This document shows, one piece after another, positions 48,189 to 63,355 of a stretch of 64,000 bases of DNA. Source of the DNA: Candidatus Binatia bacterium (GTDB taxonomy: Bacteria > Desulfobacterota > Binatia > UBA9968 > JAJDTQ01); contig OX638375.1 in the NCBI GenBank assembly GCA_951813575.1, positions 3,946,752 through 4,010,751 on the forward strand, written 5' to 3'. The notes beneath the pieces are model-generated. The model saw nothing but the letters and a program-made list of their open reading frames with translations. It had not been told where the DNA came from and made no database searches. A program made the position numbers and the translations under genes. Position 1 is the stretch's first letter. Each line of letters opens with the position of its first letter.

Positions 48189-49244
48189 CTAGTCCTCCTC
48201 GCTGTAGAGGTTCAGGCTCTCCAGCACCGGGCGGTCGGTCACCGAGAACAGGATCGCGGGCTCGGTTTGGGAGTCGTTCTTGAAGTGGTGCCAGTGCCAC
48301 GACGGGACCACGAAGCAGTCCTGCTCCGTCCAGGTCATGGGGTTGCCGTTGTTCTTGTCCTTGCCCGCCACGGTGGTGCCGGCGCCCTGCATCACGTGGT
48401 AGATGGTGCTGCTCGTGTGGCGGTGGGGGCGGGTCGATTCGCCCGGGCGGAGCCATTGGACACGGCAGTCGATGGTGGGCATGGTGGGGCCGCCGGTGAC
48501 GGGGTTGGCGTATTGCAGCAGCACGCCGTCGTGGGGGTCGCCGTCCGAGGATCCCGCCAGTTGCTCCAGCACGGGCAGGGTGTCGCTCCACTTGTAGGTG
48601 TAGGGCAGGGCGTGGTTGCCGGGACTCTCGGTGAGCGGCCGCACCGCGCCGAGGCGGTGGCGGCTGTAGCCCTCGGCCTTGGTCACCGGCTGGGCCGGGC
48701 CCTCGCCGTAGTTCTCGTGGAAGTTGGCGTCCAGGTGGTTCATCAGGTGCACGTCGAGGACGTCGAGCCACACGATGTTGCTCTCGCCCTGGTTGTAATG
48801 GTCATGCCAGGTCCAGCTCGGCGTCAGCACGAGGTCGCCGGGCTCCATGTGCATCTCTTCTCCCTCCACCGTGGTGAACCCGGTGCCGTCGCCTTCCACC
48901 ACGAAACGCAAGGCCGCGGCCGTGTGCCGGTGGCACTCGGCGCGCTCCCCCGGCTTCACGAGTTGCACGGACATCTGGATGGTCCGGGTGGTGGACTTGA
49001 AGGCGGTGAGCCCTGGGTTTACGAGCTGTACCGTGCGGCGCTTGGCGGCCTCGTCGATGTGCCCGAGCTTCACCACCTCGCCGGATTCCATCAGGCAGGA
49101 ATAGACCACCGGCCAGCGCCACAGGTGGGGTTGGAGCGCCGGCGCGGGCTGGCGCGGCTGCCAGTGGCCGGCTAGGGAGTTCTCCGCCATGATGCGGTGC
49201 AGTTCCTCAAGCCGTGGATCGTCCGTGTTGACGGCTTCACTCAT
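48189..49244 (-). CDS. Bicupin, gentisate 1,2-dioxygenase-like (copy 3)
   Basis: A 351-aa two-cupin protein. First-domain ligands are CHRHTAA and WTWHDHYN; second-domain ligands are PHRHTSS and WHWHHFKN, both complete. The N-terminal helix and the PHLWRWPVVYSCLMESGEV stretch match the other copies. The start at 49244 follows AAGGAGACGATC. It lies between the PBP2-fold decarboxylase-like gene and tctABC, flanked on both sides by hairpin repeats. Confidence 0.8.
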   Translation of the reverse strand: MSEAVNTDDPRLEELHRIMAENSLAGHWQPRQPAPALQPHLWRWPVVYSCLMESGEVVKLGHIDEAAKRRTVQLVNPGLTAFKSTTRTIQMSVQLVKPGERAECHRHTAAALRFVVEGDGTGFTTVEGEEMHMEPGDLVLTPSWTWHDHYNQGESNIVWLDVLDVHLMNHLDANFHENYGEGPAQPVTKAEGYSRHRLGAVRPLTESPGNHALPYTYKWSDTLPVLEQLAGSSDGDPHDGVLLQYANPVTGGPTMPTIDCRVQWLRPGESTRPHRHTSSTIYHVMQGAGTTVAGKDKNNGNPMTWTEQDCFVVPSWHWHHFKNDSQTEPAILFSVTDRPVLESLNLYSEED

Positions 49245-49281
49245 GATCGTCTCCTTCACGCTCTGTGGCGGCTCTGTTTGG

Positions 49282-49324
49282 TTGGCGCCCTTCGACTTCG
49301 CTTCGCGAAGCCGAAGGGCGCCAA
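49282..49324. repeat. Dispersed hairpin repeat, CTTCGACTTCGC type (copy C)
   Basis: Arms 49282-49300 (TTGGCGCCCTTCGACTTCG) and 49306-49324 pair over 19 bases with one mismatch around a 5-base loop. It sits between two minus-strand genes and shares its core with the repeats at 45824 and 48080. Confidence 0.7.
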
Positions 49325-49372
49325 TTCGAAAAGCGCCAATTCTTCCTAATCTCCCCGACCCGTGAAATTCTC

Positions 49373-50329
49373 CTACACCCCCTCCAACGCCGCGGCTTCC
49401 GGATGGAAGAAACTCTCGTAGTCGAGTTTCTCCGAGGTCAGGCCGAACTGGTGTGCGAACGTCATCATGGTTTCCAGCGAACGCACGTTGTCCTGGATGT
49501 TGTAGGACCAGTAGTTCTCTCCCATGACCGCCCGCTGCTCGTCGATGGCCGCGGCCACCCACGAGGTGATGAGCACTTCCGGATCCGCGCCGTAGAGCCG
49601 GTCCAGCGCCACGTCGCGGGCTCGGCGGTACGCCTTCAACAGCTCTATGGGTGCGGTCGGATGCTGGTCGACGAAATCCTGCTTGAGGGTAACCATGTGG
49701 CTGATGGGGAAGATCCCCGTGGCCTTGTAGTAGTTGAGCTCCTCGTTCTTGTAGTCCCGGAACAGGCGTCGTACCCGCGGGTCGCGCCGGCTGATGGACG
49801 GCAGCACGTTGGGTTCGATGACCGCGTCGACTTCTCCCCCGAGCAGCATTTCATCCAGGGGCTCACCGGGCTGCGGCCCCAGGATGTGCGGCAGCGGCTC
49901 GACCTCGACGTCCGGCGCCCAGCTCGCGGCCTCCGGCCCGGGCATGCACCAGCGGATGCGCGCGAGGTCCACGCCGTAGTGGTCCTGGAGCGCCCCCCGC
50001 GCCCACACGCCGGCGGTGCTGCTGACGAACACGCGCTTTCCCTCCAGGTCCTTTGGAGTGTCGATGCCCGACGCGTTGTTGACGAAGATGTAGGCCAGCC
50101 GGAACTTGCGGTTGGGGTAAGCCGGGATCGACACGTACGGGTGCTCGCCCTTGCTCTTGGTGCGCATGAGGCCGCCGAAGCTGGCGTCCCACGCGTCGAT
50201 GGTCTCGGGTCCGTGAAAGTCGCTGATCTCGAGATCGAAACCCTCCACCTCGATGCTCCCGTCGACGAAGGGCCGGTTGGTGTCCACCTCGGGCTCCCGG
50301 AAACCGAGCCGGAGCTTGGGGTTCGCCAT
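49373..50329 (-). CDS. 4,5-dihydroxyphthalate decarboxylase-like PBP2-fold protein (copy 1)
   Basis: A 318-aa type-2 binding-fold protein without a signal peptide (MANPKLRLGFREPEVD). The pattern of an early acidic strand, YVSIPAYPNRKFRLAYIFV, DTPKDLEGKRVFVSSTAGVWARGALQD and KATGIFPISHM follows 4,5-dihydroxyphthalate decarboxylase (Pht5/OphC), an enzyme that evolved from binding proteins. The start at 50329 has GGGAGACAGATCC upstream; a longer frame would overlap the bicupin upstream. It lies between two bicupins, consistent with decarboxylation of an aromatic acid in the same pathway. Confidence 0.72.
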   Translation of the reverse strand: MANPKLRLGFREPEVDTNRPFVDGSIEVEGFDLEISDFHGPETIDAWDASFGGLMRTKSKGEHPYVSIPAYPNRKFRLAYIFVNNASGIDTPKDLEGKRVFVSSTAGVWARGALQDHYGVDLARIRWCMPGPEAASWAPDVEVEPLPHILGPQPGEPLDEMLLGGEVDAVIEPNVLPSISRRDPRVRRLFRDYKNEELNYYKATGIFPISHMVTLKQDFVDQHPTAPIELLKAYRRARDVALDRLYGADPEVLITSWVAAAIDEQRAVMGENYWSYNIQDNVRSLETMMTFAHQFGLTSEKLDYESFFHPEAAALEGV

Positions 50330-50358
50330 GGATCTGTCTCCCTTGTGTCTGTGGCGCG

Positions 50359-51393
50359 CTATCCGTCCTGACGCTCCGCCGGCGCGGTCTCCTTCATGAA
50401 AAAGCCGAGCTTGGTCTGTGCCGGCCAGTCGTCGATGGAGAACAGGATGGAATCGCCATGGTGACCGTTCTCGTGATGGTGCCACGTCCAGGCCGGCACC
50501 GCAAAGATGTCTCCCTGGCTCCACTCGAGCCGCTCGCCCTCGATGACGATGGCCCCTTCACCCTCGAACGCGTGGTAGAAGGTGTTGCTGTTGTGGCGGT
50601 GGCTCAGGGTAATCTGCCCCGCTCGCAGGAGTTGCGCGTGCCAGGCGATGGTGGGCAGCGTGGGGCCGCCGTCCACCGGGCTGGCGAGCATCAGGTGGGC
50701 GCCCTCGCAGGGGTCTTCCTCGCCGGCTTCCCGCAAGGCGCCCAGGGCGGCCCGGGTCTCGGCCCAGGGATAGCGCATGGGCGGCAGCGGAAAGGGCCTG
50801 CCGTGGGCCATGGGCCGCGCCAGCCCCCGGGTCCGGTCGCCGTAGCCGCTGGGCTTGCGGATCTCCTGGTAGGGCAGGTCTTCCGGGAGCCTTTCGTTGA
50901 GGTTCACCCCGCCGTTGTAGCCGTTGTCATAGCCGTCCACGTACAGGGCCGGCGCGGATCCCTGGTTCCAGTGGTCATGAAAGGTCCAGGACGGGCTGAT
51001 GATGACGTCGCCGCGCTCCATGGGAAAGGCCTCGAACTCGCAGACGAACGCGGCCTCCCGGGGCGCCTGGCACACCAGCCGCGTTTCGTTGCGCATGTTG
51101 CGGTGACCCTGGGTGCGCTCGCCGGGCATGAGGATCTGGACGTTCATCCAGATGGGAAAGCGGGTGGCCTCGATGCCGGTGACGGAACGCATGCCCGTCA
51201 TGCCCCTTGGGCCTACCGTGACGATTTCGCCGGAACGCAGGAGGCCCTGGTAGATTCCCTCCCAGCGCCAATGAGCGCCGGTGGCGCCGGTGCGCGGCGG
51301 CGCCATGCCCTCGCGCCGCAGCCCGGCGCCGGTCAGGTGGTGCCCGGCCAGGTACTTCTCGAGGTCTTCGTGGGTGCTGCCGACGCCGCTCAT
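50359..51393 (-). CDS. Bicupin, gentisate 1,2-dioxygenase-like (copy 4), N-site altered
   Basis: A 344-aa two-cupin protein. The second domain is complete (SHRHNSN and WTWHHHEN). In the first domain the His pair is changed to GHRNMRN, so the second His is Asn; the later His (SWTFHDHWN) remains. This copy may use only its C-terminal metal site. It ends in SIDDWPAQTKLGFFMKETAPA rather than the usual RPxLExxxLY-EE tail. It lies between an amidohydrolase and the PBP2-fold decarboxylase-like gene on the same strand. Confidence 0.78.
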   Translation of the reverse strand: MSGVGSTHEDLEKYLAGHHLTGAGLRREGMAPPRTGATGAHWRWEGIYQGLLRSGEIVTVGPRGMTGMRSVTGIEATRFPIWMNVQILMPGERTQGHRNMRNETRLVCQAPREAAFVCEFEAFPMERGDVIISPSWTFHDHWNQGSAPALYVDGYDNGYNGGVNLNERLPEDLPYQEIRKPSGYGDRTRGLARPMAHGRPFPLPPMRYPWAETRAALGALREAGEEDPCEGAHLMLASPVDGGPTLPTIAWHAQLLRAGQITLSHRHNSNTFYHAFEGEGAIVIEGERLEWSQGDIFAVPAWTWHHHENGHHGDSILFSIDDWPAQTKLGFFMKETAPAERQDG

Positions 51394-52843: not shown

Positions 52844-53695
52844 ATGACTGGAACCCAGGCCGTCGAGGCCCCGCGGGACGCGGTGGAGGCCGTTCTCAAT
52901 TACGCGGTGGACACGGGCGAGAAACCGGTGACGCATACGGCGGTGCTCAATACCACACCGGCGTTGCGCACCGGCAAACGCGAGGCGCGCCGGGCCATGA
53001 TCCACAACGGGCGCCCCATGGCGGACGAGTTCACAATGGATCGCGAGGGGTTCGTCTTCGTCAGGCATGAGACCCGGGTGTCCGACTTCTACGATGAGGA
53101 CGAGCTCCGCGCGGTGTACTACCCAGAGATCGATGCGCTGGTGAAGCAAGAGACCGGCGCCTCCCGGGTGGTCATCTTCGACCACACGCTCCGAGCCCAG
53201 GACGAAGGCATCCGGTCCCAACGGCAAGTGCGCGAGCCCAACCGGTCGGTGCACAACGACTACACCGAGTGGTCCGCGCCCAAGCGGGTGCGGGACCTGT
53301 TGCCGGCGGACGAGGCGGAGGCGCTGCTCCAGGGGCGGTTCGCCATCATCCAGGTCTGGCGGCCCACCCGCAACCCGGTCCGCACCAACCCGCTGGCCAT
53401 CGCCGATGCCCGGAGCCTGCGAGCCGAGGAGCTGATCCCGTCACAGCGCAGCTACCCCGGCCGCATCGGCGAGACCTACCAGATCAAGTACAGCCCGGAG
53501 CACCGCTGGTTCTACTTTCCCGCCATGGCCCGTAACGAGGCCATCGTGTTCAAGGTGTTCGATTCCGAGAAGGACGGGCGCGCGCGCTTCACCGCCCATA
53601 GCTCCTTCGACGACCCCACGTGCCCGCCCGACGCCCCGGCGCGCGAGAGCATCGAGGTGCGGACGCTGGCCTTCTTCGACGCTCCGGCATCGTGA
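52844..53695 (+). CDS. CmcJ/NvfI-family Fe(II)/2-oxoglutarate-type oxygenase
   Basis: A 283-aa protein of the CmcJ/NvfI (cephem 7-methoxylation/asnovolin) family, which includes Fe/2-oxoglutarate oxygenases. The metal pair is visible as VHNDYT (His-x-Asp, about residue 125) with a later His in SPEHRWFYFPAM. RPTRNPVRTNPLAI is a family block. AAGGGAGGTG precedes the ATG. It could hydroxylate or ring-modify a small molecule upstream of the catabolic operon. The substrate is unknown. Confidence 0.78.
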   Translation: MTGTQAVEAPRDAVEAVLNYAVDTGEKPVTHTAVLNTTPALRTGKREARRAMIHNGRPMADEFTMDREGFVFVRHETRVSDFYDEDELRAVYYPEIDALVKQETGASRVVIFDHTLRAQDEGIRSQRQVREPNRSVHNDYTEWSAPKRVRDLLPADEAEALLQGRFAIIQVWRPTRNPVRTNPLAIADARSLRAEELIPSQRSYPGRIGETYQIKYSPEHRWFYFPAMARNEAIVFKVFDSEKDGRARFTAHSSFDDPTCPPDAPARESIEVRTLAFFDAPAS

Positions 53696-54761: not shown

Positions 54762-55799
54762 ATGACGAAGAGCCGTTTTTCGCTCGCATCCGTGGTTCTG
54801 GCCCTCGCCGTGGTGACTGCATCCTGGAACATTGCGGGCGCGGCGGAGTTCTACAAAGGGAAGACCGCCCGCATCGTCGTTTCTTCTTCTCCCGGCGGAG
54901 GCTACGACACCTACGCCCGCTACATCGCCCGTCACCTTTACCGGCACCTGCCCGGGAAGCCCCGGATGATCGTGGAGAACCGGCCCGGCGCCGGCGGGCT
55001 TCGGGCGGGAAACTACATCTACCACTCGTCGCGCCAGGACGGCACCGAGATTCTGCATATCGGCGGCTCGTCCGTGATCAAGCAGTTGACGGGTATGAAG
55101 CAGGTCAAGTTCGACGCCCGGAAGTTCCAGTACATCGGCGCTCCCTACGCCGAGGCCACCGTGCTGGTGGTGACCCGGAACTCCGGCATCAGCAGCCTGG
55201 ATGACATCCTCGGCCCCAAGGCGAAGGAAGTCGCGCTGGGCGGCATCAGCGTGGGATCGCCCAATGACGTGGCCGCCATTCTGCTGCGGGACGTGCTCGG
55301 GGGGAAGATCCGGCTGGTGACCGGGTACAAGGGCACGTCGCGAATCAGGCTGGCCATGGACTCGGACGAACTCGACGGAATGTTCAACGGTTGGGCGTCG
55401 TTGAATGCCACGAGCTTCGACAAGCTACAGAGCGGAGAATACAAGGTTCTAATACAGGTCAGTCCGGAGCCCATCAAGGAGCTGGGAGACATCCCCTCCA
55501 TTGCGCAGCTCGCCAAGACCGACGCGCAGCGGCGCCTGGTCCGTCTGACCACCACGGTGCCTTACCAATACGCGCGGTCCTTTCTGGTGGGACCGAAGGT
55601 GCCGAAGGAACGGGTGGCGGAGATCCGCAAGGCATTCAACGCCACCATGACCGATCCGGCCTTTCTTGGGGAAGCCAAAAAGGGGCGCCTCAAGATCAGT
55701 CCCATCAAGGGCACCGACCTGCAGTCGTACGTGAAGGAGTTTCTGGAAATGCCGTCGGAGGAGAAGAAGAAGGTGCTGGGGGTGGTGGCCGGCAAGTGA
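54762..55799 (+). CDS. tctC: Orphan TctC-type periplasmic binding protein
   Basis: A 345-aa Bug/TctC-family binding protein with a signal peptide (LASVVLALAVVTASWNIAGA, cleavage near GAAE). The mature start AEFYKGKTARIVVSSSPGGGYD and IVENRPGAGG are family blocks. GGGAGGACG precedes the ATG at 54762. No tctA or tctB follows, so it would share the membrane subunits at 45867-47862 or act as a sensor. It leads the operon that ends with the UbiD-type enzymes. Confidence 0.85.
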   Translation: MTKSRFSLASVVLALAVVTASWNIAGAAEFYKGKTARIVVSSSPGGGYDTYARYIARHLYRHLPGKPRMIVENRPGAGGLRAGNYIYHSSRQDGTEILHIGGSSVIKQLTGMKQVKFDARKFQYIGAPYAEATVLVVTRNSGISSLDDILGPKAKEVALGGISVGSPNDVAAILLRDVLGGKIRLVTGYKGTSRIRLAMDSDELDGMFNGWASLNATSFDKLQSGEYKVLIQVSPEPIKELGDIPSIAQLAKTDAQRRLVRLTTTVPYQYARSFLVGPKVPKERVAEIRKAFNATMTDPAFLGEAKKGRLKISPIKGTDLQSYVKEFLEMPSEEKKKVLGVVAGK

Positions 55800-55873
55800 C
55801 GGCGGTACCCGGGCGTATGCCGCGCCGGACAAGACACGCTATTGCGCGGCGATCCACGAGAAGGAGTGACATA

Positions 55874-56767
55874 ATGGAACGTTTGAAAGGCATGTACATA
55901 CCGCTGCCGACGCCCTTTACCGACACCGGCGCGGTGGACGAGAACGCGGTGTTGGCGCTGACGGACTTCTACGTGGAAGCCGGCGTGCACGGCCTGTTCG
56001 TGCTGGGTACCTTCGGCCAGGGTCCGGCGCTGACGCCGGACGAGCGCAAGCGGACGGCCAAGATCGTCATCGACCGGGTGGCGGGCCGCATTCCGGTGGT
56101 GATTCACGCGGGGACGGCGGACACTCCCACCACCATCGATCTCGCCCTGGACGCCAGGGACCAGGGGGCCGACGTGGTCGGCGTGGTGCCGCCGTATTAC
56201 TTCGACCACCTCGACGACGAGGTCCTGCAGCACTACGTCAAGGTCTACGAGGCCATCCAGTACCCCATGTTCATCTACAACAACGCGGTGAACAGCGGCT
56301 ATCGCATGACCGCGCCCTGGACCGCGAAGCTGGTGGCGGAAGTCCCGGAGGCCTGCGGCATCAAGATGTCGTTCATCCCACTGGAGCAGCAACTGGCCTT
56401 CGTGCGGGCGCTGCCCGCGAGTTGCGCCGTGTTTTCCGGCTCGGCGACGCTGATCATGCCGGGGGTGTTGTGGGGTCTCGCCGGCTCCATTCATCCGCTG
56501 ACGGTGGCCATCCCCGAGCTGCTGGTGAACCTGTGGGACGCCACCACCACCGGCAAGCTGGAGGAGGCGGTGGAACTGCAGCGCCGGGTCATCGAGTTCA
56601 CAGCGGTCATCGGCGACCTCCAGCGGACCGCGGGCCGTTCGGTGCTGCGGGAGTCGCTGAAGTTGCGGGATCTTCCGGTAGTGGACTTCCCGAGGTGGCC
56701 CACCAAGGATCTGAATAGCGAGCAGGCCACGAGGCTCAGGAACGCGCTGGCCGTGGCGCGGGACTGA
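55874..56767 (+). CDS. DapA-family Schiff-base aldolase/synthase-like protein
   Basis: A 297-aa protein of the dihydrodipicolinate synthase superfamily, closer to classical DapA/N-acetylneuraminate lyase in size than the two NahE-like copies. PLPTPFTDTGAVDE opens the barrel, FVLGTFGQGPALT is the substrate loop, FIYNNAVNSGY holds the usual Tyr region and GIKMSFIPLEQQ carries the Schiff-base Lys. AAGGAGTGACATA precedes the ATG. In this operon it is more likely an aldolase or lyase in catabolism than a lysine-biosynthesis enzyme. Confidence 0.8.
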   Translation: MERLKGMYIPLPTPFTDTGAVDENAVLALTDFYVEAGVHGLFVLGTFGQGPALTPDERKRTAKIVIDRVAGRIPVVIHAGTADTPTTIDLALDARDQGADVVGVVPPYYFDHLDDEVLQHYVKVYEAIQYPMFIYNNAVNSGYRMTAPWTAKLVAEVPEACGIKMSFIPLEQQLAFVRALPASCAVFSGSATLIMPGVLWGLAGSIHPLTVAIPELLVNLWDATTTGKLEEAVELQRRVIEFTAVIGDLQRTAGRSVLRESLKLRDLPVVDFPRWPTKDLNSEQATRLRNALAVARD

Positions 56768-56798
56768 TTTCCTGAGCCAGCACGTAAGGAGAAGAGTC

Positions 56799-57506
56799 AT
56801 GAACGCGAAGGAATGGCGCAACGAGCTTGGTGAGATCGTCAGGGACTATTTCCGGTCCCCGGAATTGGGGCAGTTCTATGAAACCCCCGTCAGCCTGGAG
56901 CGCGCACGGCTCTATTTGTCGCAGCTCGGCATCTACGTCCGCCAGCGGCGGCACTACTGGCCCCAGGTGGCCGCCAACTGTCCCGTGCACCTGGTCAAGC
57001 AGCGCATCATGTCCCACGAGTACGAGGAGTTGGTGGAGGACGACTATTCGGACCGCGGCCACCTGGACCTGATCTTCCGGCAGGGCAGGGAAGTGGGGCT
57101 CAGCGAGGAGGACGTGCTGGGCGCCGAGCCGCTGCCTACCACCCGAGCGGCCATCTACGGCTGGTGGTGGATTGCCCGGACCAAGCCGTGGCAGGAGGCG
57201 CTGGCCGCTTCCACCATCGCCGAGTGGACCAACGACGACCGGCTGCTGGGGGACTTGGGCGGGGGCAACTGCGGCCGGCTGTACGAGCGCTGGAGCCACG
57301 ACCTCAAGTTCACCGACGAGCAGATGCCCAACTTCACCGCCCATCGCGCCGCCGACGAGAAGCACTCCGAGATGTTCCTGGACATCTTCGAGCGGCTGGT
57401 GCCGGAGGGCGCCGAGGAAGGCGTGCTGAGCACCGCCCGGGAGTCCATGGACATTCACCGGGCCTACTTCGGCGGCATGGCCGCGGCCATGGCGCGGCTG
57501 CCGTAG
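56799..57506 (+). CDS. Heme-oxygenase-like diiron (HDO/PqqC-like) protein
   Basis: A 235-aa all-helical protein of the TenA/PqqC/heme-oxygenase-like fold. It shows a HxxxDxxH motif (HRAADEKH, about residues 184-191) and an earlier acidic helix SHEYEELVEDDYSDRGH, the ligand pattern of heme-oxygenase-like diiron oxidases such as CADD and UndA. Such enzymes perform oxidative decarboxylation or carbon-carbon cleavage with oxygen. AAGGAGAAGAGTC lies before the ATG. It lies between a DapA-fold gene and a bicupin with spacings of about 20-30 bases. Substrate unknown. Confidence 0.7.
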   Translation: MNAKEWRNELGEIVRDYFRSPELGQFYETPVSLERARLYLSQLGIYVRQRRHYWPQVAANCPVHLVKQRIMSHEYEELVEDDYSDRGHLDLIFRQGREVGLSEEDVLGAEPLPTTRAAIYGWWWIARTKPWQEALAASTIAEWTNDDRLLGDLGGGNCGRLYERWSHDLKFTDEQMPNFTAHRAADEKHSEMFLDIFERLVPEGAEEGVLSTARESMDIHRAYFGGMAAAMARLP

Positions 57507-57526
57507 GCGCCGACGCGGGTACACCC

Positions 57527-58549
57527 ATGAAGATGGAGTTGAAGGACCTCAACGACTCGCTGGCCGAGCACGACCTCTCGGGCTTCTGGAACACGCGCAC
57601 GCCCGAGCACCAGGACGAGGCGCCGTATCTTTGGAAGTGGCGGGAGGTCTATCCGTGTTTGATGGACGCCAGGGAGTCCGTGGGGCTCGAGCTGGCCGAG
57701 CGAAGGGCCATACGGCTGGTGAACCCCCAGAACCCCACCCGCGCCACCTCCCGGACGCTGCTTTTCACCTTCTCGGTGGTGAACCCCGGTGAGATCGCCC
57801 GGCCGCACCGGCACAACATGGCCGCCATCCGTTTCGTGGTGAAGGGGAGCGGCGCGTTCACGCTGGTGGAGGGGGAGCGCTTCCCCATGCACGAGGGCGA
57901 TCTGATCCTCACCCCCAACTGGACCTGGCACGAGCACCACAACGAGTCGAGTGAACCCATCGTCTGGCTCGACGGCCTTGACGGCCCGCTCATCAACGCG
58001 CTGAACGTGCTCTTCTTCGAGAACTACGAAAAGGACACCCAGGGCGTCACCCGCGCCGACGGCGACGCGCAGATGCGCTACGGTTTCGCCCGCCCGCCGG
58101 CCCACGCGGAATCTCCCGGCCGGGGCCTGCCGTTCTGCTACCGCTGGGAGGACACCGACGCCTCGCTCCACAACATCGTTGACGCCGAGGCGGATCCCTT
58201 CGACGGCCACCTGGTCCGCTACACCAATCCGGTCACCGGCGGCTATACCATGGCGACCCTGTCCTGCGAGGCGCAGATGCTCAAGCCGGGCTGGGTCACC
58301 GGCACCCACCGCCACACCAGCACCGCGCTCTACCACGTGTTCCGCGGCCGCGGCCGCACGGCGGTGGGCGAGGGCTTCCTGGAGTGGGAGAAGGGCGACT
58401 CGTTCATGATCCCCAACTGGCAGTGGCACCGCCACGAGAACCCTTTCGATGAGGAGGCGGTGGTCTTCTCCATGAACGACCGGCCGGTGCTGGAAGCGCT
58501 GGCGCTCTACCGAGAAGAGCAGCGTTCCGGCGGCAACGGCGGCCGATAA
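57527..58549 (+). CDS. Bicupin, gentisate 1,2-dioxygenase-like (copy 5)
   Basis: A 340-aa two-cupin protein. First-domain ligands are PHRHNMA and WTWHEHHN; second-domain ligands are THRHTST and WQWHRHEN, both complete. YLWKWREVYPCLMDARESV matches the pre-cupin segment of copy 3. The start is taken at 57527; an ATG two codons later is equally possible. It lies in the tctC-led operon, 20 bases after the diiron protein and 30 before the first UbiD gene. Confidence 0.8.
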   Translation: MKMELKDLNDSLAEHDLSGFWNTRTPEHQDEAPYLWKWREVYPCLMDARESVGLELAERRAIRLVNPQNPTRATSRTLLFTFSVVNPGEIARPHRHNMAAIRFVVKGSGAFTLVEGERFPMHEGDLILTPNWTWHEHHNESSEPIVWLDGLDGPLINALNVLFFENYEKDTQGVTRADGDAQMRYGFARPPAHAESPGRGLPFCYRWEDTDASLHNIVDAEADPFDGHLVRYTNPVTGGYTMATLSCEAQMLKPGWVTGTHRHTSTALYHVFRGRGRTAVGEGFLEWEKGDSFMIPNWQWHRHENPFDEEAVVFSMNDRPVLEALALYREEQRSGGNGGR

Positions 58550-58579
58550 ACGCAAACCGACAGACCGCGCGAGTTCAAC

Positions 58580-60184
58580 ATGTCCTATCCCGACCTCCAA
58601 GAGCACCTGGCCAACCTGGAATCCGCCGGACTGCTGCTGCGCATCCGCCACCCCATCAACAAGGACACGGAGATGCACCCGCTGGTGCGCTGGCAGTTCC
58701 GCGGCGGCTTGCCGGAGGCGGAGCGCAAGGCCTTTCTGTTCGAGAACGTGGTGGACAGCCACGGCCGCACCTACGACATGCCGGTGGCGGTGGCCGCGCT
58801 GGCCGCCTCTCCACAAGTGTACTCGGTTGGGCTGCAACGCGCGGTGGAGGAGATCCCCGACCTTTGGGCTCACGCGCTGGCCCATCCCATCGAACCCGCC
58901 ATCGTCGATTCCGGACCGGTTCACGAGGTGGTGCTGCAGGGCGCCGACCTGGACGTAGAGGGCGGCGGGCTGCTGCAACTCCCGGTGCCCATCTCCACGC
59001 CGGGTTTCGACAACGCGCCCTACACCACCTGCTCCCACTGGTTCACCAAGGACCCGGAGACGGGCGTCCGCAACCAGGGCAACTACCGCGGGCAGATCAA
59101 GAGTGCGAGGCGCGTGGGCATGTACGCCGGCATGCACCAGCACATCTTTCCGCACTGGGACAAGTGCCGGGAGCAGGGCAAGCCGTTGCACGCCGCGCTG
59201 GTGGTGGGCGCGCCGCCGGTGGTTTCCTACGGCACCGTGCAGAAGGTGCCGCCAGGAGTGGACGAGATGGGCATCGCCGGCGGCCTGGCGGGCGAGCCGG
59301 TCCAACTGGTCCGGTGCAAGACCGTGGATATCGAGGTGCCGGCCAACGCCGAGATCGTCATCGAGGGGCTCATCAACACGGATTTCGTGGAGCCCGAGGG
59401 TCCCTTCGGCGAGTCCCACGGCTACCTGCATCCGCGCACCGTGTCGCCGTTCATGGAGGTGACCGCCATCACCATGAAACGCAAGCCGGTGCTGTGCTCG
59501 TTCATCAGCCAGGTGACGCCCAGCGAATCCAGCGTCATCAAGAAGGTGGGCTACGAACCGTTGCTGCGCCGTTACCTGCGGGACACCATCGGCATCAAGA
59601 GCGTCACCCAGGTGGCCATGCACGAACCCCTCACCAACCTGCGCAAGCTCGTCATCGTGCAGATGAGCAAGCCCGCGGAAGGGGACGTCTGGCGCGCCCT
59701 GAACAGCATCGCCAACTACCAGCACGGGGTCGGCAAGATCGCCATCGCCGTGGACGACGACATCGATCCCCACAACCTTGATGCCGTCTGGTGGGCCATC
59801 TGCTACCGCTCCAAGCCGCACCAGGACGTGCTGATCCTGCCGGGCCGGGTCAAGGGCCACTCGCCGCCCTTCGAGGACGAGGGCCACCTGATCACGGCCA
59901 AGGAGATGTTCTACCAGCCGGCCACCGACTCCGGCATGCTCATCAACGCCATCCTGAAGGAGCCGTTCCCGCCCATCTCGCTGCCCAAGCGCGAGTTCAT
60001 GGAGCACGCCCGGGAACTGTGGAACCGGCTGGAGTTGCCGCCCCTTGAGCCCCAGGCGCCGTGGTACGGCTATTCGCTGGGCCAGTGGGACGACGAGTGG
60101 GAGGAGGAGGCCCAGCTTGCGGTGAAGAGCGACTATCTCCAGACCGGCGCCAAGCTGGCGAAGCGCCGGGTGAAGCCGGGCTGA
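58580..60184 (+). CDS. UbiD-family decarboxylase (copy 1)
   Basis: A 534-aa UbiD-type enzyme, dependent on prenylated FMN, that reversibly decarboxylates aromatic or unsaturated acids. The acidic active-site segment is visible as EPEGPFGESHGY (about residues 273-284), and GNYRGQIKSARRVGMY holds the Arg-containing cofactor region. The C-terminus (WEEEAQLAVKSDYLQTG) is slightly long for the family. Its stop overlaps the next start (TGATG), so it is coupled to the PBP2-fold decarboxylase-like gene. No UbiX-type prenyltransferase is in the window. Confidence 0.88.
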   Translation: MSYPDLQEHLANLESAGLLLRIRHPINKDTEMHPLVRWQFRGGLPEAERKAFLFENVVDSHGRTYDMPVAVAALAASPQVYSVGLQRAVEEIPDLWAHALAHPIEPAIVDSGPVHEVVLQGADLDVEGGGLLQLPVPISTPGFDNAPYTTCSHWFTKDPETGVRNQGNYRGQIKSARRVGMYAGMHQHIFPHWDKCREQGKPLHAALVVGAPPVVSYGTVQKVPPGVDEMGIAGGLAGEPVQLVRCKTVDIEVPANAEIVIEGLINTDFVEPEGPFGESHGYLHPRTVSPFMEVTAITMKRKPVLCSFISQVTPSESSVIKKVGYEPLLRRYLRDTIGIKSVTQVAMHEPLTNLRKLVIVQMSKPAEGDVWRALNSIANYQHGVGKIAIAVDDDIDPHNLDAVWWAICYRSKPHQDVLILPGRVKGHSPPFEDEGHLITAKEMFYQPATDSGMLINAILKEPFPPISLPKREFMEHARELWNRLELPPLEPQAPWYGYSLGQWDDEWEEEAQLAVKSDYLQTGAKLAKRRVKPG

Positions 60185-61191
60185 TGGCCGATCCCTGCCA
60201 CCTCCGTCTCGCCTGCCGCAACTACGACGGCACCAACGCCATCCTCCGCGGCGTCCTGGACGCTCTGGGAATCGAGCTGGAGGTGGTGGAGCAGGTGAGC
60301 GTGCAGGGCATGTTCGCGGCCATGTACCGGGGCGAGTTCGACGTCTCCGAGATGTCGCTGGCCGAGCTGATCTACTACACGTCACGCAACCAGAGCGACT
60401 TCATCGGCATACCGGTGTTCCCGTCGCGCATGTTCCGGCACGGGTTCATCGTCGTCCGGCGCGACGCCGGCGTCGACACGCCCCAGGACCTCGTGGGCAA
60501 GCGGCTCGGGTTCCTGCGCTGGGTGCAGACCGCGGCGGTGTGGATCCGCGGCACGCTGATGAACGAGTACGGGGTCACGCCGTCCAATTCCCAATGGCAC
60601 GCGGCTTCCCTGCACCACTGGGACGACGGCAGCCCCGAGACCTCGGTGAAGCTCCCGGGCGGGGCCGTCATCGAGGTGCTGCAGGGAGAAGGGAGCGCCG
60701 CCGACCGGGCCATGGCGGCGATCCGGGAAGGGCGGCTGGACATGCTGGGGGTTACGGAAACACAGCTTCCGCCGCTCCTGGCCGACGCCGGGTTGAAACG
60801 GCTGTTCGAGGACTACCGGGACATCGAGGCGGAGTATTTCAGGAAGACCCGGATCTTCCCGATCATGCACGTGCTCGCCGTCCGGAAATCGGTGTTGGAG
60901 CAGCACCCGGATGTTTCGGCTGCTCTCTTCGATCTGTTCAGCCAGGCGAAGCGGCAGGCGCGGCAACGGTTCGTCGACATACCGAGCCAGGTGATGGCGT
61001 GGCCGCGGCACGCGCTGGAGCAGGAACGCGCGGTGTTCGGCGGCGACTCGTGCCCCTACGGCCTCGACGCCAACCGCGACGTTCTCAACACGTTCATCGA
61101 GTACTGCGAGGCCCAGGGCATCTGCGAGCGCAACCTCTCGCCGGAGGAACTGTTCGCACCCGAGACCTGGGATTTGACGGAGCAGGAATAG
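60184..61191 (+). CDS. 4,5-dihydroxyphthalate decarboxylase-like PBP2-fold protein (copy 2)
   Basis: A 335-aa type-2 binding-fold protein without a signal peptide. It follows 4,5-dihydroxyphthalate decarboxylase closely: LRLACRNYDGTNAILRG, GEFDVSEMSLAELIYYT, IPVFPSRMFRHGFIVV, and the end GICERNLSPEELFAPETWD. ATG 60184 overlaps the UbiD stop. Being between two UbiD genes supports a decarboxylation role on a polycarboxylated aromatic, though binding-protein-like non-catalytic functions remain possible. Confidence 0.8.
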   Translation: MADPCHLRLACRNYDGTNAILRGVLDALGIELEVVEQVSVQGMFAAMYRGEFDVSEMSLAELIYYTSRNQSDFIGIPVFPSRMFRHGFIVVRRDAGVDTPQDLVGKRLGFLRWVQTAAVWIRGTLMNEYGVTPSNSQWHAASLHHWDDGSPETSVKLPGGAVIEVLQGEGSAADRAMAAIREGRLDMLGVTETQLPPLLADAGLKRLFEDYRDIEAEYFRKTRIFPIMHVLAVRKSVLEQHPDVSAALFDLFSQAKRQARQRFVDIPSQVMAWPRHALEQERAVFGGDSCPYGLDANRDVLNTFIEYCEAQGICERNLSPEELFAPETWDLTEQE

Positions 61192-61212
61192 TTCGATCGA
61201 GAGGTGAGTACG

Positions 61213-62691
61213 ATGGCCAGACCGCAAAGGAAACAGGATACGGAGCTGACCCCCTTCGACGATCTTCGCGGGTGGCTCGCGCGAGTGGAGGAGATCGGAC
61301 AGTTGGAGCGCATCTCCGGCGCCCACTGGGACCTGGAGGTGGGCGCCCTGAACGAGATCATCTGCGAGCGGTTGCCGGCGCCGCCGGCGTTGCTGTTCGA
61401 GAACGTGGCCGGCCATGAGGGCGGCGGGCGCGTCCTCGCCAACATGATGGAGACCATGGAGCGGACCGCGCTCACCCTCGGTCTGCCGCTGGACCTCAGC
61501 ACCATCGAGGTCATCGACCGATTGCGCACCCGGCTGGCCGATCTCACGCCCCTGGAGCCCCGGGTGGTGCCCACGGGCCCGGTGATGGAGAACCGCCATA
61601 CGGGCAAGGACATCAATATCCTCGACATCCCGGTGCCGCGCTGGCACTCGGGCGACGGCGGCCGCTACCTCGGCACCGCGCACCTGGTGGTCACGCGGGA
61701 CCCCGAGACCGGCGAGGAGAACGTCGGCTGCTACCGGGTCATGGTCCACGAGGCCGACAAGCTGGCGCTCTACATCTCGCCGGGCAAGCACGGGCGCATG
61801 CACATGGAGAAGACCCTCAAGGCCGGCAAGCCCGTGCAGGTGGCCATGGCCTTCGGCCAGCATCCGCTGATGTTCGTGGCCGCCTCCCAGGCGGTGCCCC
61901 CGGGCGTCAGCGAGTACGCCTGGGCCGGCGGGCTTGTGGATCAGCCGCTGAGCGTCATCGAGGCGCCGCTCACCGGGCTCCGGGTGCCCGCCGCGGCCGA
62001 GATCGTGGTGGAAGGGGAGATCATCCCGGGCGACACCCGTCCCGAGGGCCCCTTCGGCGAATGGACCGGCTACTACGCCAGTGCCCGCCGGGCCGAGCCG
62101 GTGGTGCAACTGAAGGCCTTCTACCACCGGGACGATCCGATCCTCACCAGCGCGCCGCCGTTCCGTCCCACCATCCACGGCATGTACCGCTCCATGCTGC
62201 GTTCGGCGATGATCTGGAACGGCGTGGAGAGGGGCGGGGTGCCGGACGTCGTCGGCGTATACGTGCCGCCGCCGGCCCAGCGCTTCATGATCGTGGTCTC
62301 CATCCGCCAGCGCTATCCCGGCCACGCCAAGCAGGCGGCGCTCATGGCCGCCCAGTGCCACGCCGGCGCCTACCTTGGCCGCTACGTGGTGGTGGTGGAC
62401 GACGACGTGGACATCACCAACCTGAACGAGGTGGTGTGGGCCATGTGCACCCGCTCCAATCCCGAGGAATCCATCGACATCATCCGCCGTACCTGGAGCG
62501 GGCCGCTGGACCCCATCATCCCCCGCGACAAGAAGGGCCTCAACTCCCGCGCCATCATCGACGCCACCCGGCCCTTCGAGTGGAAGGACCAGTTCCCGGC
62601 GGTGAGCCAGATCGACAAGGAGACCCACGACACAGTGGCCGGCAGGTGGAAGGACGAGCTGGACCGGGTGGTGCGGGGGCACCGGCAATAA
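61213..62691 (+). CDS. UbiD-family decarboxylase (copy 2)
   Basis: A 492-aa UbiD-type prenylated-FMN decarboxylase, normal length. The acidic segment is RPEGPFGEWTGYY (about residues 278-290) and NVGCYRVMVHEADKLALY is the cofactor-side block. LFENVAGHEGGGRVLANMM near the N-terminus is typical. The ATG at 61213 follows GAGAGGTGAG; a GTG at 61204 is possible. It is only distantly similar to copy 1, so the two may act on different intermediates or as a hetero-oligomer. Confidence 0.9.
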   Translation: MARPQRKQDTELTPFDDLRGWLARVEEIGQLERISGAHWDLEVGALNEIICERLPAPPALLFENVAGHEGGGRVLANMMETMERTALTLGLPLDLSTIEVIDRLRTRLADLTPLEPRVVPTGPVMENRHTGKDINILDIPVPRWHSGDGGRYLGTAHLVVTRDPETGEENVGCYRVMVHEADKLALYISPGKHGRMHMEKTLKAGKPVQVAMAFGQHPLMFVAASQAVPPGVSEYAWAGGLVDQPLSVIEAPLTGLRVPAAAEIVVEGEIIPGDTRPEGPFGEWTGYYASARRAEPVVQLKAFYHRDDPILTSAPPFRPTIHGMYRSMLRSAMIWNGVERGGVPDVVGVYVPPPAQRFMIVVSIRQRYPGHAKQAALMAAQCHAGAYLGRYVVVVDDDVDITNLNEVVWAMCTRSNPEESIDIIRRTWSGPLDPIIPRDKKGLNSRAIIDATRPFEWKDQFPAVSQIDKETHDTVAGRWKDELDRVVRGHRQ

Positions 62692-62743
62692 GACCACGGA
62701 CTGGCGTGGGGGCCGCTCCGCGTCCGCCGGGAAGGAACATGAC

Positions 62744-63355
62744 ATGAGCGATGCCATCAGGCTGTACGAATTCGCGACCTCGCCCAACTGCCAGCGGGTG
62801 AAGGTGGTGCTGGAAGAGAAGGGGCTGGCCTACGAGACGGTTCCCGTGGACCTGCGCAAGAAGGAGCAGAAGGATCCGGAGTACCTCGCCATGAACCCCC
62901 ACGGCAAGGTGCCGGTGCTGGTGGACGGCGACACCGTGCTCTACGAGTCGTGCATCATCAACGAGTACCTGGAAGAGAGATACCCGAATCCGTCGTTGCT
63001 GCCCGCCGACCCCTCGGCGCGCGCCCGGATACGCATCCTCATCGACTACGGCATCACCCACACCAACGACAGCCATCAGGCCATCCGCGCGGAGATGATG
63101 AAGCCCGAGGGCGAGCGCGACGCCGACGCCCTGGCCGCGGCCAAGGCCCGGTTTCTCGAAGAGCTGCAACCGCTGGAGCGCGAGCTCGAAGGCCGCGACT
63201 ACATGGCGGGAGACTTCTCGCTGCTCGACGCCGCCCACCTGCCTCGGATCATGCGCCACGTCCAGTGGGGCGTTCTGCCGGACCCGAGCCTGCCGCGCCT
63301 CGATGCTTGGTACCAGCGCATGACCGCGCGTCCGTCTGTCCGTGCCCTTGGCTGA
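62744..63355 (+). CDS. Glutathione S-transferase family protein
   Basis: A 203-aa GST with thioredoxin-fold N-domain (ATSPNCQRVKVVLEEKGL, residues 7-24), the cis-Pro segment GKVPVLVDGD and the glutathione-contacting YESCIINEYLEERYP, then a helical C-domain. Catabolic operons often use GSTs for isomerisation of ring-cleavage products (maleylpyruvate isomerase type), which would fit the gentisate-like cupins. GGGAAGGAAC lies before the ATG. Its end overlaps the start of the next gene. Confidence 0.85.
   Translation: MSDAIRLYEFATSPNCQRVKVVLEEKGLAYETVPVDLRKKEQKDPEYLAMNPHGKVPVLVDGDTVLYESCIINEYLEERYPNPSLLPADPSARARIRILIDYGITHTNDSHQAIRAEMMKPEGERDADALAAAKARFLEELQPLERELEGRDYMAGDFSLLDAAHLPRIMRHVQWGVLPDPSLPRLDAWYQRMTARPSVRALG

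Follow-up and report, generated by a model that had tools for sequence, protein, structure and literature searches.

The gene at positions 56799–57506 (+) of the stretch analysed here (the window, 64,000 nucleotides from a Binatia bacterium) raises the question of what a haem-oxygenase-like dimetal oxidase (HDO) does among genes that resemble those of aromatic-acid breakdown. About a dozen HDOs have been characterised, nearly all from biosynthesis according to a 2026 review. This agrees with a remark of the first-pass annotation that known members are mostly biosynthetic; DtpC of Acinetobacter, tied to oxidative-stress tolerance, is an exception. The product of the window gene is referred to below as HDO-A.

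Family membership and predicted metal site of HDO-A

HDO-A is encoded by an intact open reading frame of 235 amino acids with an ATG start. A scan for promoters and terminators gave no signal clearly exceeding shuffled controls. The protein matched Pfam Haem_oxygenas_2 (PF14518) with 44.6 bits (cut-off 28.9) and also TENA_THI-4 with 41.6 bits (cut-off 22). Its AF2 model (pLDDT 89.8, pTM 0.88) has the haem-oxygenase-like seven-helix fold, and a Foldseek search with the model gave E values down to 2.2e-06, with VIA Z scores up to 22.4. Structural neighbours at Z 19–22 included CADD, PqqC, BesC, UndA, HrmI and FlcD; 4lqx was a further match. This fold by itself cannot separate an HDO from TenA or PqqC, which have it in common with HDO-A; the ligand motif can, these two enzymes having no metal ligands. 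TenA thiaminase II uses a catalytic Cys and Glu.

The HRAADEKH motif and the preceding acidic helix, on which the first-pass annotation had relied, were located at residues 182–189 (57342–57365, +) and 74–85 (EYEELVEDDYSD), respectively. Predicted metal ligands are E77 (57027–57029), H88 (57060–57062), E142 (57222–57224) and, inside HRAADEKH, H182, D186 and H189, all on the forward strand. Each of the six was invariant in 63/63 distinct full-length members of the HDO-A family, a sample obtained from 69 family rows of fetched loci, of which 64 were full length and 63 distinct, five fragments and one duplicate being left out. H73 and E74 were invariant in the same 63 sequences and D81 (57039–57041, +) was present in 60. 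With orthologues at 67–99% identity and a dN/dS of 0.04–0.15 in four orthologue pairs, indicating purifying selection, this invariance places the observation beyond chance.

The ligand set corresponds to the E-H-E-H-(D/E)-H motif given for HDOs in PMC11363339. The E-x10-H spacing of HDO-A is not out of character, because the spacing between the first two ligands is variable among HDOs according to that source. Which residue is taken as the first carboxylate, E77 or D81, changes with the alignment used. In the wider alignment the E77 column is Glu for every HDO-type row and not for the TenA or PqqC reference rows, which are without the HDO ligand set; a gap-free HMMER alignment to NePabS favours D81. 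On these alignments D81 could serve as the first ligand, add a fourth carboxylate to the site or belong to the second sphere. The suggestion that it replaces the usual ligand Glu is weakened by the position of E77 in the Glu column and by the loss of D81 in 3/63 sequences. Around the candidate first ligand (residues 71–80) the mean pLDDT of the AF2 model was 58.

A tree was built from 33 rows (15 of the HDO-A family, four TenA, one PqqC, two CADD or CADD-like and 11 others). The HDO-A family formed one clade (support 100/99) and the four TenA rows a separate one (100/100), with PqqC, a single row on a long branch, outside the HDO-A clade. The phylogeny check proposed earlier for a TenA or PqqC placement thus left HDO-A outside both groups. 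The deeper forks, on which the choice of a closest known HDO depends, were weakly supported. Against the NCBIfam models, HDO-A scored 15.6 bits for PqqC (TIGR02111, cut-off 240) and 22.5 bits for CADD (TIGR04305, cut-off 200).

The CADD/NePabS p-aminobenzoate synthases are among the nearest solved folds (Z 22) and have a similar kind of metal-site motif. These synthases have a sacrificial Tyr and an amino-donor Lys, residues named in PMC11965152. A self-sacrificing synthase of this type was rejected for HDO-A, because Tyr25 of NePabS aligns to Leu23 and Lys159 to Asn157; residues 146–160 of HDO-A contain no Lys.

Pfam, the modelled fold, the motif and the tree together support membership of HDO-A in the HDO superfamily, the class to which it had been assigned at first sight. 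It is probably a dimetal, and probably diiron, oxidase or oxygenase with a predicted metal site, belonging to an uncharacterised subfamily that is expanded in Binatia. With UndA, SznF, BesC, FlcE, HrmI and CADD it has the haem-oxygenase-like fold and the ligand motif in common; it differs from them in its own clade, the E-x10-H spacing, the invariant H73 and E74 and the nearly invariant D81.

The operon and its conservation

HDO-A lies inside a tight run of genes with short intergenic gaps at 54762–63355, all on the forward strand. The run begins with a TctC-type substrate-binding protein (54762–55799; gene call, Pfam PF03401) and a lyase/aldolase of the DapA (DHDPS) family (55874–56767; PF00701), whose PDB relatives are DapA, NanA and KDG aldolase. 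The latter gene ends 31 bp upstream of HDO-A and a bicupin gene (57527–58549) starts 20 bp downstream, which is the arrangement first described. Next come a UbiD-family decarboxylase (UbiD-a, 58580–60184; closest to 6h6x), a Pht5-like protein with an NMT1/phosphonate-binding fold (60184–61191) and a second UbiD-family decarboxylase (UbiD-b, 61213–62691; closest to 7pda), both UbiD assignments being made with Pfam and NCBIfam. At the end stands a glutathione S-transferase (GST)-fold protein, possibly an isomerase, that scored below the MaiA cut-off (62744–63355).

From profiles and an alignment, the bicupin is the likely ring-cleavage enzyme. It aligned over 307 residues to 2d40, a putative gentisate 1,2-dioxygenase, with the HxH...H of the first domain kept. 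Because its score against the gentisate-dioxygenase equivalog TIGR02272 was 279.0 bits and the cut-off of 442.1 was not reached, it is named gentisate-dioxygenase-like only. The 5-aminosalicylate dioxygenase model gave 290.7 bits, both scores being far under their cut-offs. The Pht5-like protein was about 37% identical over 97% of its length to plasmid-borne proteins, among them a 4,5-dihydroxyphthalate decarboxylase; one of these matches carries the depositor's name pht5 and belongs to a phthalate operon that also encodes an oxygenase, a reductase and a dehydrogenase.

The gentisate-type cupin, the UbiD pair and the Pht5-like protein support an aromatic-acid breakdown operon, in line with the catabolic setting that the first-pass annotation had proposed and in place of the biosynthetic clusters of other HDOs. 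No flavin or Rieske hydroxylase was seen among the genes called at 41–64 kb of the window. Gentisate 1,2-dioxygenase pathways have the ring-cleavage-type bicupin and a nearby GST-fold gene in common with the operon, which differs from them in this respect and in having an HDO gene ahead of the cupin. With the phthalate pht operon (Pht3-Pht4-Pht5) it has a Pht5-like protein in common, and differs in that neither a Rieske oxygenase nor a dihydrodiol dehydrogenase was seen in it.

Three features outside this core were noted. A RidA-family gene (Pfam) is found near HDO-A and is not kept in distant operons. An oxidoreductase of the CmcJ/NvfI family (52844–53695, +; 317.8 bits, cut-off 80) is placed divergently between two catabolic gene sets. 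On the reverse strand at 48189–51393, a second Pht5/NMT1-like gene lies between two further gentisate-dioxygenase-like cupins, next to TctA/TctB genes and amidohydrolases.

The neighbourhood was surveyed in 16 genomes with an HDO-A orthologue, the window included. On the downstream side, readable in 15 genomes, a cupin gene directly followed the orthologue on the same strand in 14. The exception is G018, in which the orthologue (L017:10001–10711; L060 is the same place) stands solitary amid unrelated genes, so the gene can persist without the cupin. The upstream side could be read in 14 genomes; the adjacent gene there was DapA in eight of them, which belong to the same genus except for G009. 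The order HDO, cupin, Pht5-like, UbiD is kept in more distant genomes and genera (L013, L015, L016, L061 and L062).

Pairing of cupins with HDO genes in general was counted at a distance of 1.5 kb. In the own genome (G000), 4 of 10 gentisate-dioxygenase-like cupins had an HDO gene within this distance (0.15 expected; none of 20,000 rotations reached 4). In four genomes pooled the count was 9 of 36 against an expectation of 0.65, although G000 and G001 are close relatives whose counts are not independent and one of the three pairs of G018 has an HDO match just under the Pfam cut-off (27.3 against 28.9 bits). The 36 cupins were drawn from 43 TIGR02272 matches (11, 9, 5 and 18 in G000, G001, G012 and G018) after removal of seven short fragments (1, 1, 1 and 4, respectively). 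G012 has 16 Haem_oxygenas_2 genes, yet none of its four cupins has an HDO gene nearby. The four cupin-paired HDOs of the own genome are only 18–31% identical to one another while their cupins are 41–51% identical; pairs of this kind therefore occur repeatedly with HDOs that have diverged, whether through several recruitments or through duplication of an old pair. Of the 12 HDO sites of G000, four had a UbiD gene no more than 5 kb away (null 0.92, P 0.008), as did five of the nine sites of G001 (null 0.80, P 0.001). This link is weaker, since these genomes hold 32–41 UbiD genes each.

Proposed role of HDO-A

Taken as a whole, the material is best explained if HDO-A oxidises a ring acid in an aromatic-acid breakdown operon, a reading drawn from sequence and gene order to which we give a probability of roughly 45%. 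The TctC-type protein would capture the aromatic acid. HDO-A would activate O2 at the predicted E77/H88/E142/H182/D186/H189 site and oxidise the ring acid before ring cleavage, a task for which such pathways usually have a flavin or Rieske hydroxylase; this ring-preparing step is assigned to HDO-A because neither hydroxylase was seen in the interval given above. Carboxyl groups would be taken off by the UbiD and Pht5-like enzymes and the ring opened by the cupin, with the product then processed by the DapA-like and GST-like enzymes.

Pfam, the AF2 fold, the invariant motif, the separate clade, the linkage with cupin and UbiD and the Pht5-like match point to this role. Counting against it are the solitary orthologue of G018, the cupins of G012 without HDO, the score of the window cupin under the gentisate cut-off and the restriction of the DapA neighbour to the genus and one further genome. 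In addition, a monooxygenase would need an electron donor, and no dedicated one was visible among the genes of the operon. The oxidation might also be done by the CmcJ/NvfI-family oxidoreductase in place of HDO-A.

The tight cupin pairing would also suit an HDO-A that acts after ring cleavage and oxidatively splits or decarboxylates the open-chain keto-acid product of the cupin, which we consider unlikely. Some HDOs, for example UndA and FlcD, are known to split C-C bonds, a reaction covered by the 2026 review. Of its conserved neighbours the cupin lies closest to HDO-A, and decarboxylases are abundant in the operon. However, ring cleavage is usually followed by hydrolytic and aldolase steps, and the operon already has an enzyme of the DapA family.

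Among the chemistries of HDOs, N-oxygenation is a major one according to the same review, and the slightly higher score of the cupin with 5-aminosalicylate dioxygenase and the nearby RidA-family gene could be read as traces of an amino- or nitro-aromatic pathway in which HDO-A oxidises nitrogen as an N-oxygenase or amine oxidase. Both cupin scores are far under their cut-offs, and RidA is not kept in the distant operons; such a function is distinctly unlikely. Less probable again is a biosynthetic cluster in which HDO-A would contribute to a small molecule built from an aromatic precursor. Most characterised HDOs act in this way according to the review, and the tandem HDO arrays of these genomes are a little like the FlcE/FlcD pair, but NRPS, PKS and ligase genes were absent among the operon genes and the cupin, Pht5-like and UbiD genes indicate breakdown.

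The frequency of UbiD genes near HDO sites, above expectation in two genomes, would also fit an HDO-A that matures or protects the prenylated flavin of UbiD, without acting on the substrate. UbiD enzymes of other bacteria function without an HDO and the cupin pairing is tighter than the UbiD pairing, which makes this improbable. A cofactorless TenA- or PqqC-like enzyme, despite the TENA_THI-4 match and PqqC among the structural neighbours, is ruled out for practical purposes by tree and ligand motif, in agreement with the low PqqC score.

The conserved HDO-cupin pair and the decarboxylases give an unusually testable guess of the substrates, namely aromatic acids, and hint that uncultured Binatia turn over aromatic carbon by a route that has been little noticed. 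A literature search, mostly of papers outside subscription, returned no catabolic HDO partnered by a cupin, and no paper joining HDOs with catabolism, an iron-containing redox enzyme with gentisate or UbiD with Binatota.

Distribution and expansion of HDO genes

A match to HDO-A at E 1e-3 or better was found in 31 of 39 relatives searched; among 395 genomes drawn across the phylum, a match at E 1e-15 occurred in the own genome only. Among 148 phylum genomes, the own genome being one of them, five had any Haem_oxygenas_2 protein at E 1e-7; of 14 control genomes, two had the family. Other phyla were covered only by a peptide-pattern scan and plasmid searches; neither the window HDO nor the HDOs of L069 and L041 had a match on plasmids.

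Haem_oxygenas_2 genes numbered 14 in G000, 11 in G001, 16 in G012 and 26 in G018 (three of the last under the Pfam cut-off). The own genome, of 4.2 Mb, has 34 UbiD-family genes and three relatives have 38, 32 and 41, which is an extraordinary number of prFMN decarboxylases. Fourteen HDO-type and 34 UbiD genes in one genome are an unusual expansion. The 11–26 HDO genes per genome, which set these four genomes apart in the comparison with the superfamily, form a large natural set in which to see how a single dimetal scaffold is turned to different reactions. A tentative extension, rather doubtful as it stands, is that HDOs are a further class of aromatic-acid oxygenases and that Binatia hold a radiated set, each tied to its substrate and several paired with gentisate-dioxygenase-like cupins, doing the ring-preparing oxidation that falls to flavin or Rieske hydroxylases elsewhere.

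Arrays with between three and five HDO genes were found at L041:9336–13312, L048:5510–13708, L049:5520–9373, L050:1125–5293, L054 and L067; genes for NMT1-type binding proteins and VOC, GGT and UbiD genes accompany them. In L057, L058 and L064 an HDO pair and a cupin_2 protein adjoin a gene that matches EutA (ethanolamine utilisation) in L058, and the first member of the HDO pair has Q, R or N in place of D81. On a Caballeronia plasmid (L082:4928–14470), a relative of the L068 HDO with 34% identity is located among several genes for 2Fe-2S cluster proteins and an aldehyde dehydrogenase gene, a setting that suggests a redox partner.
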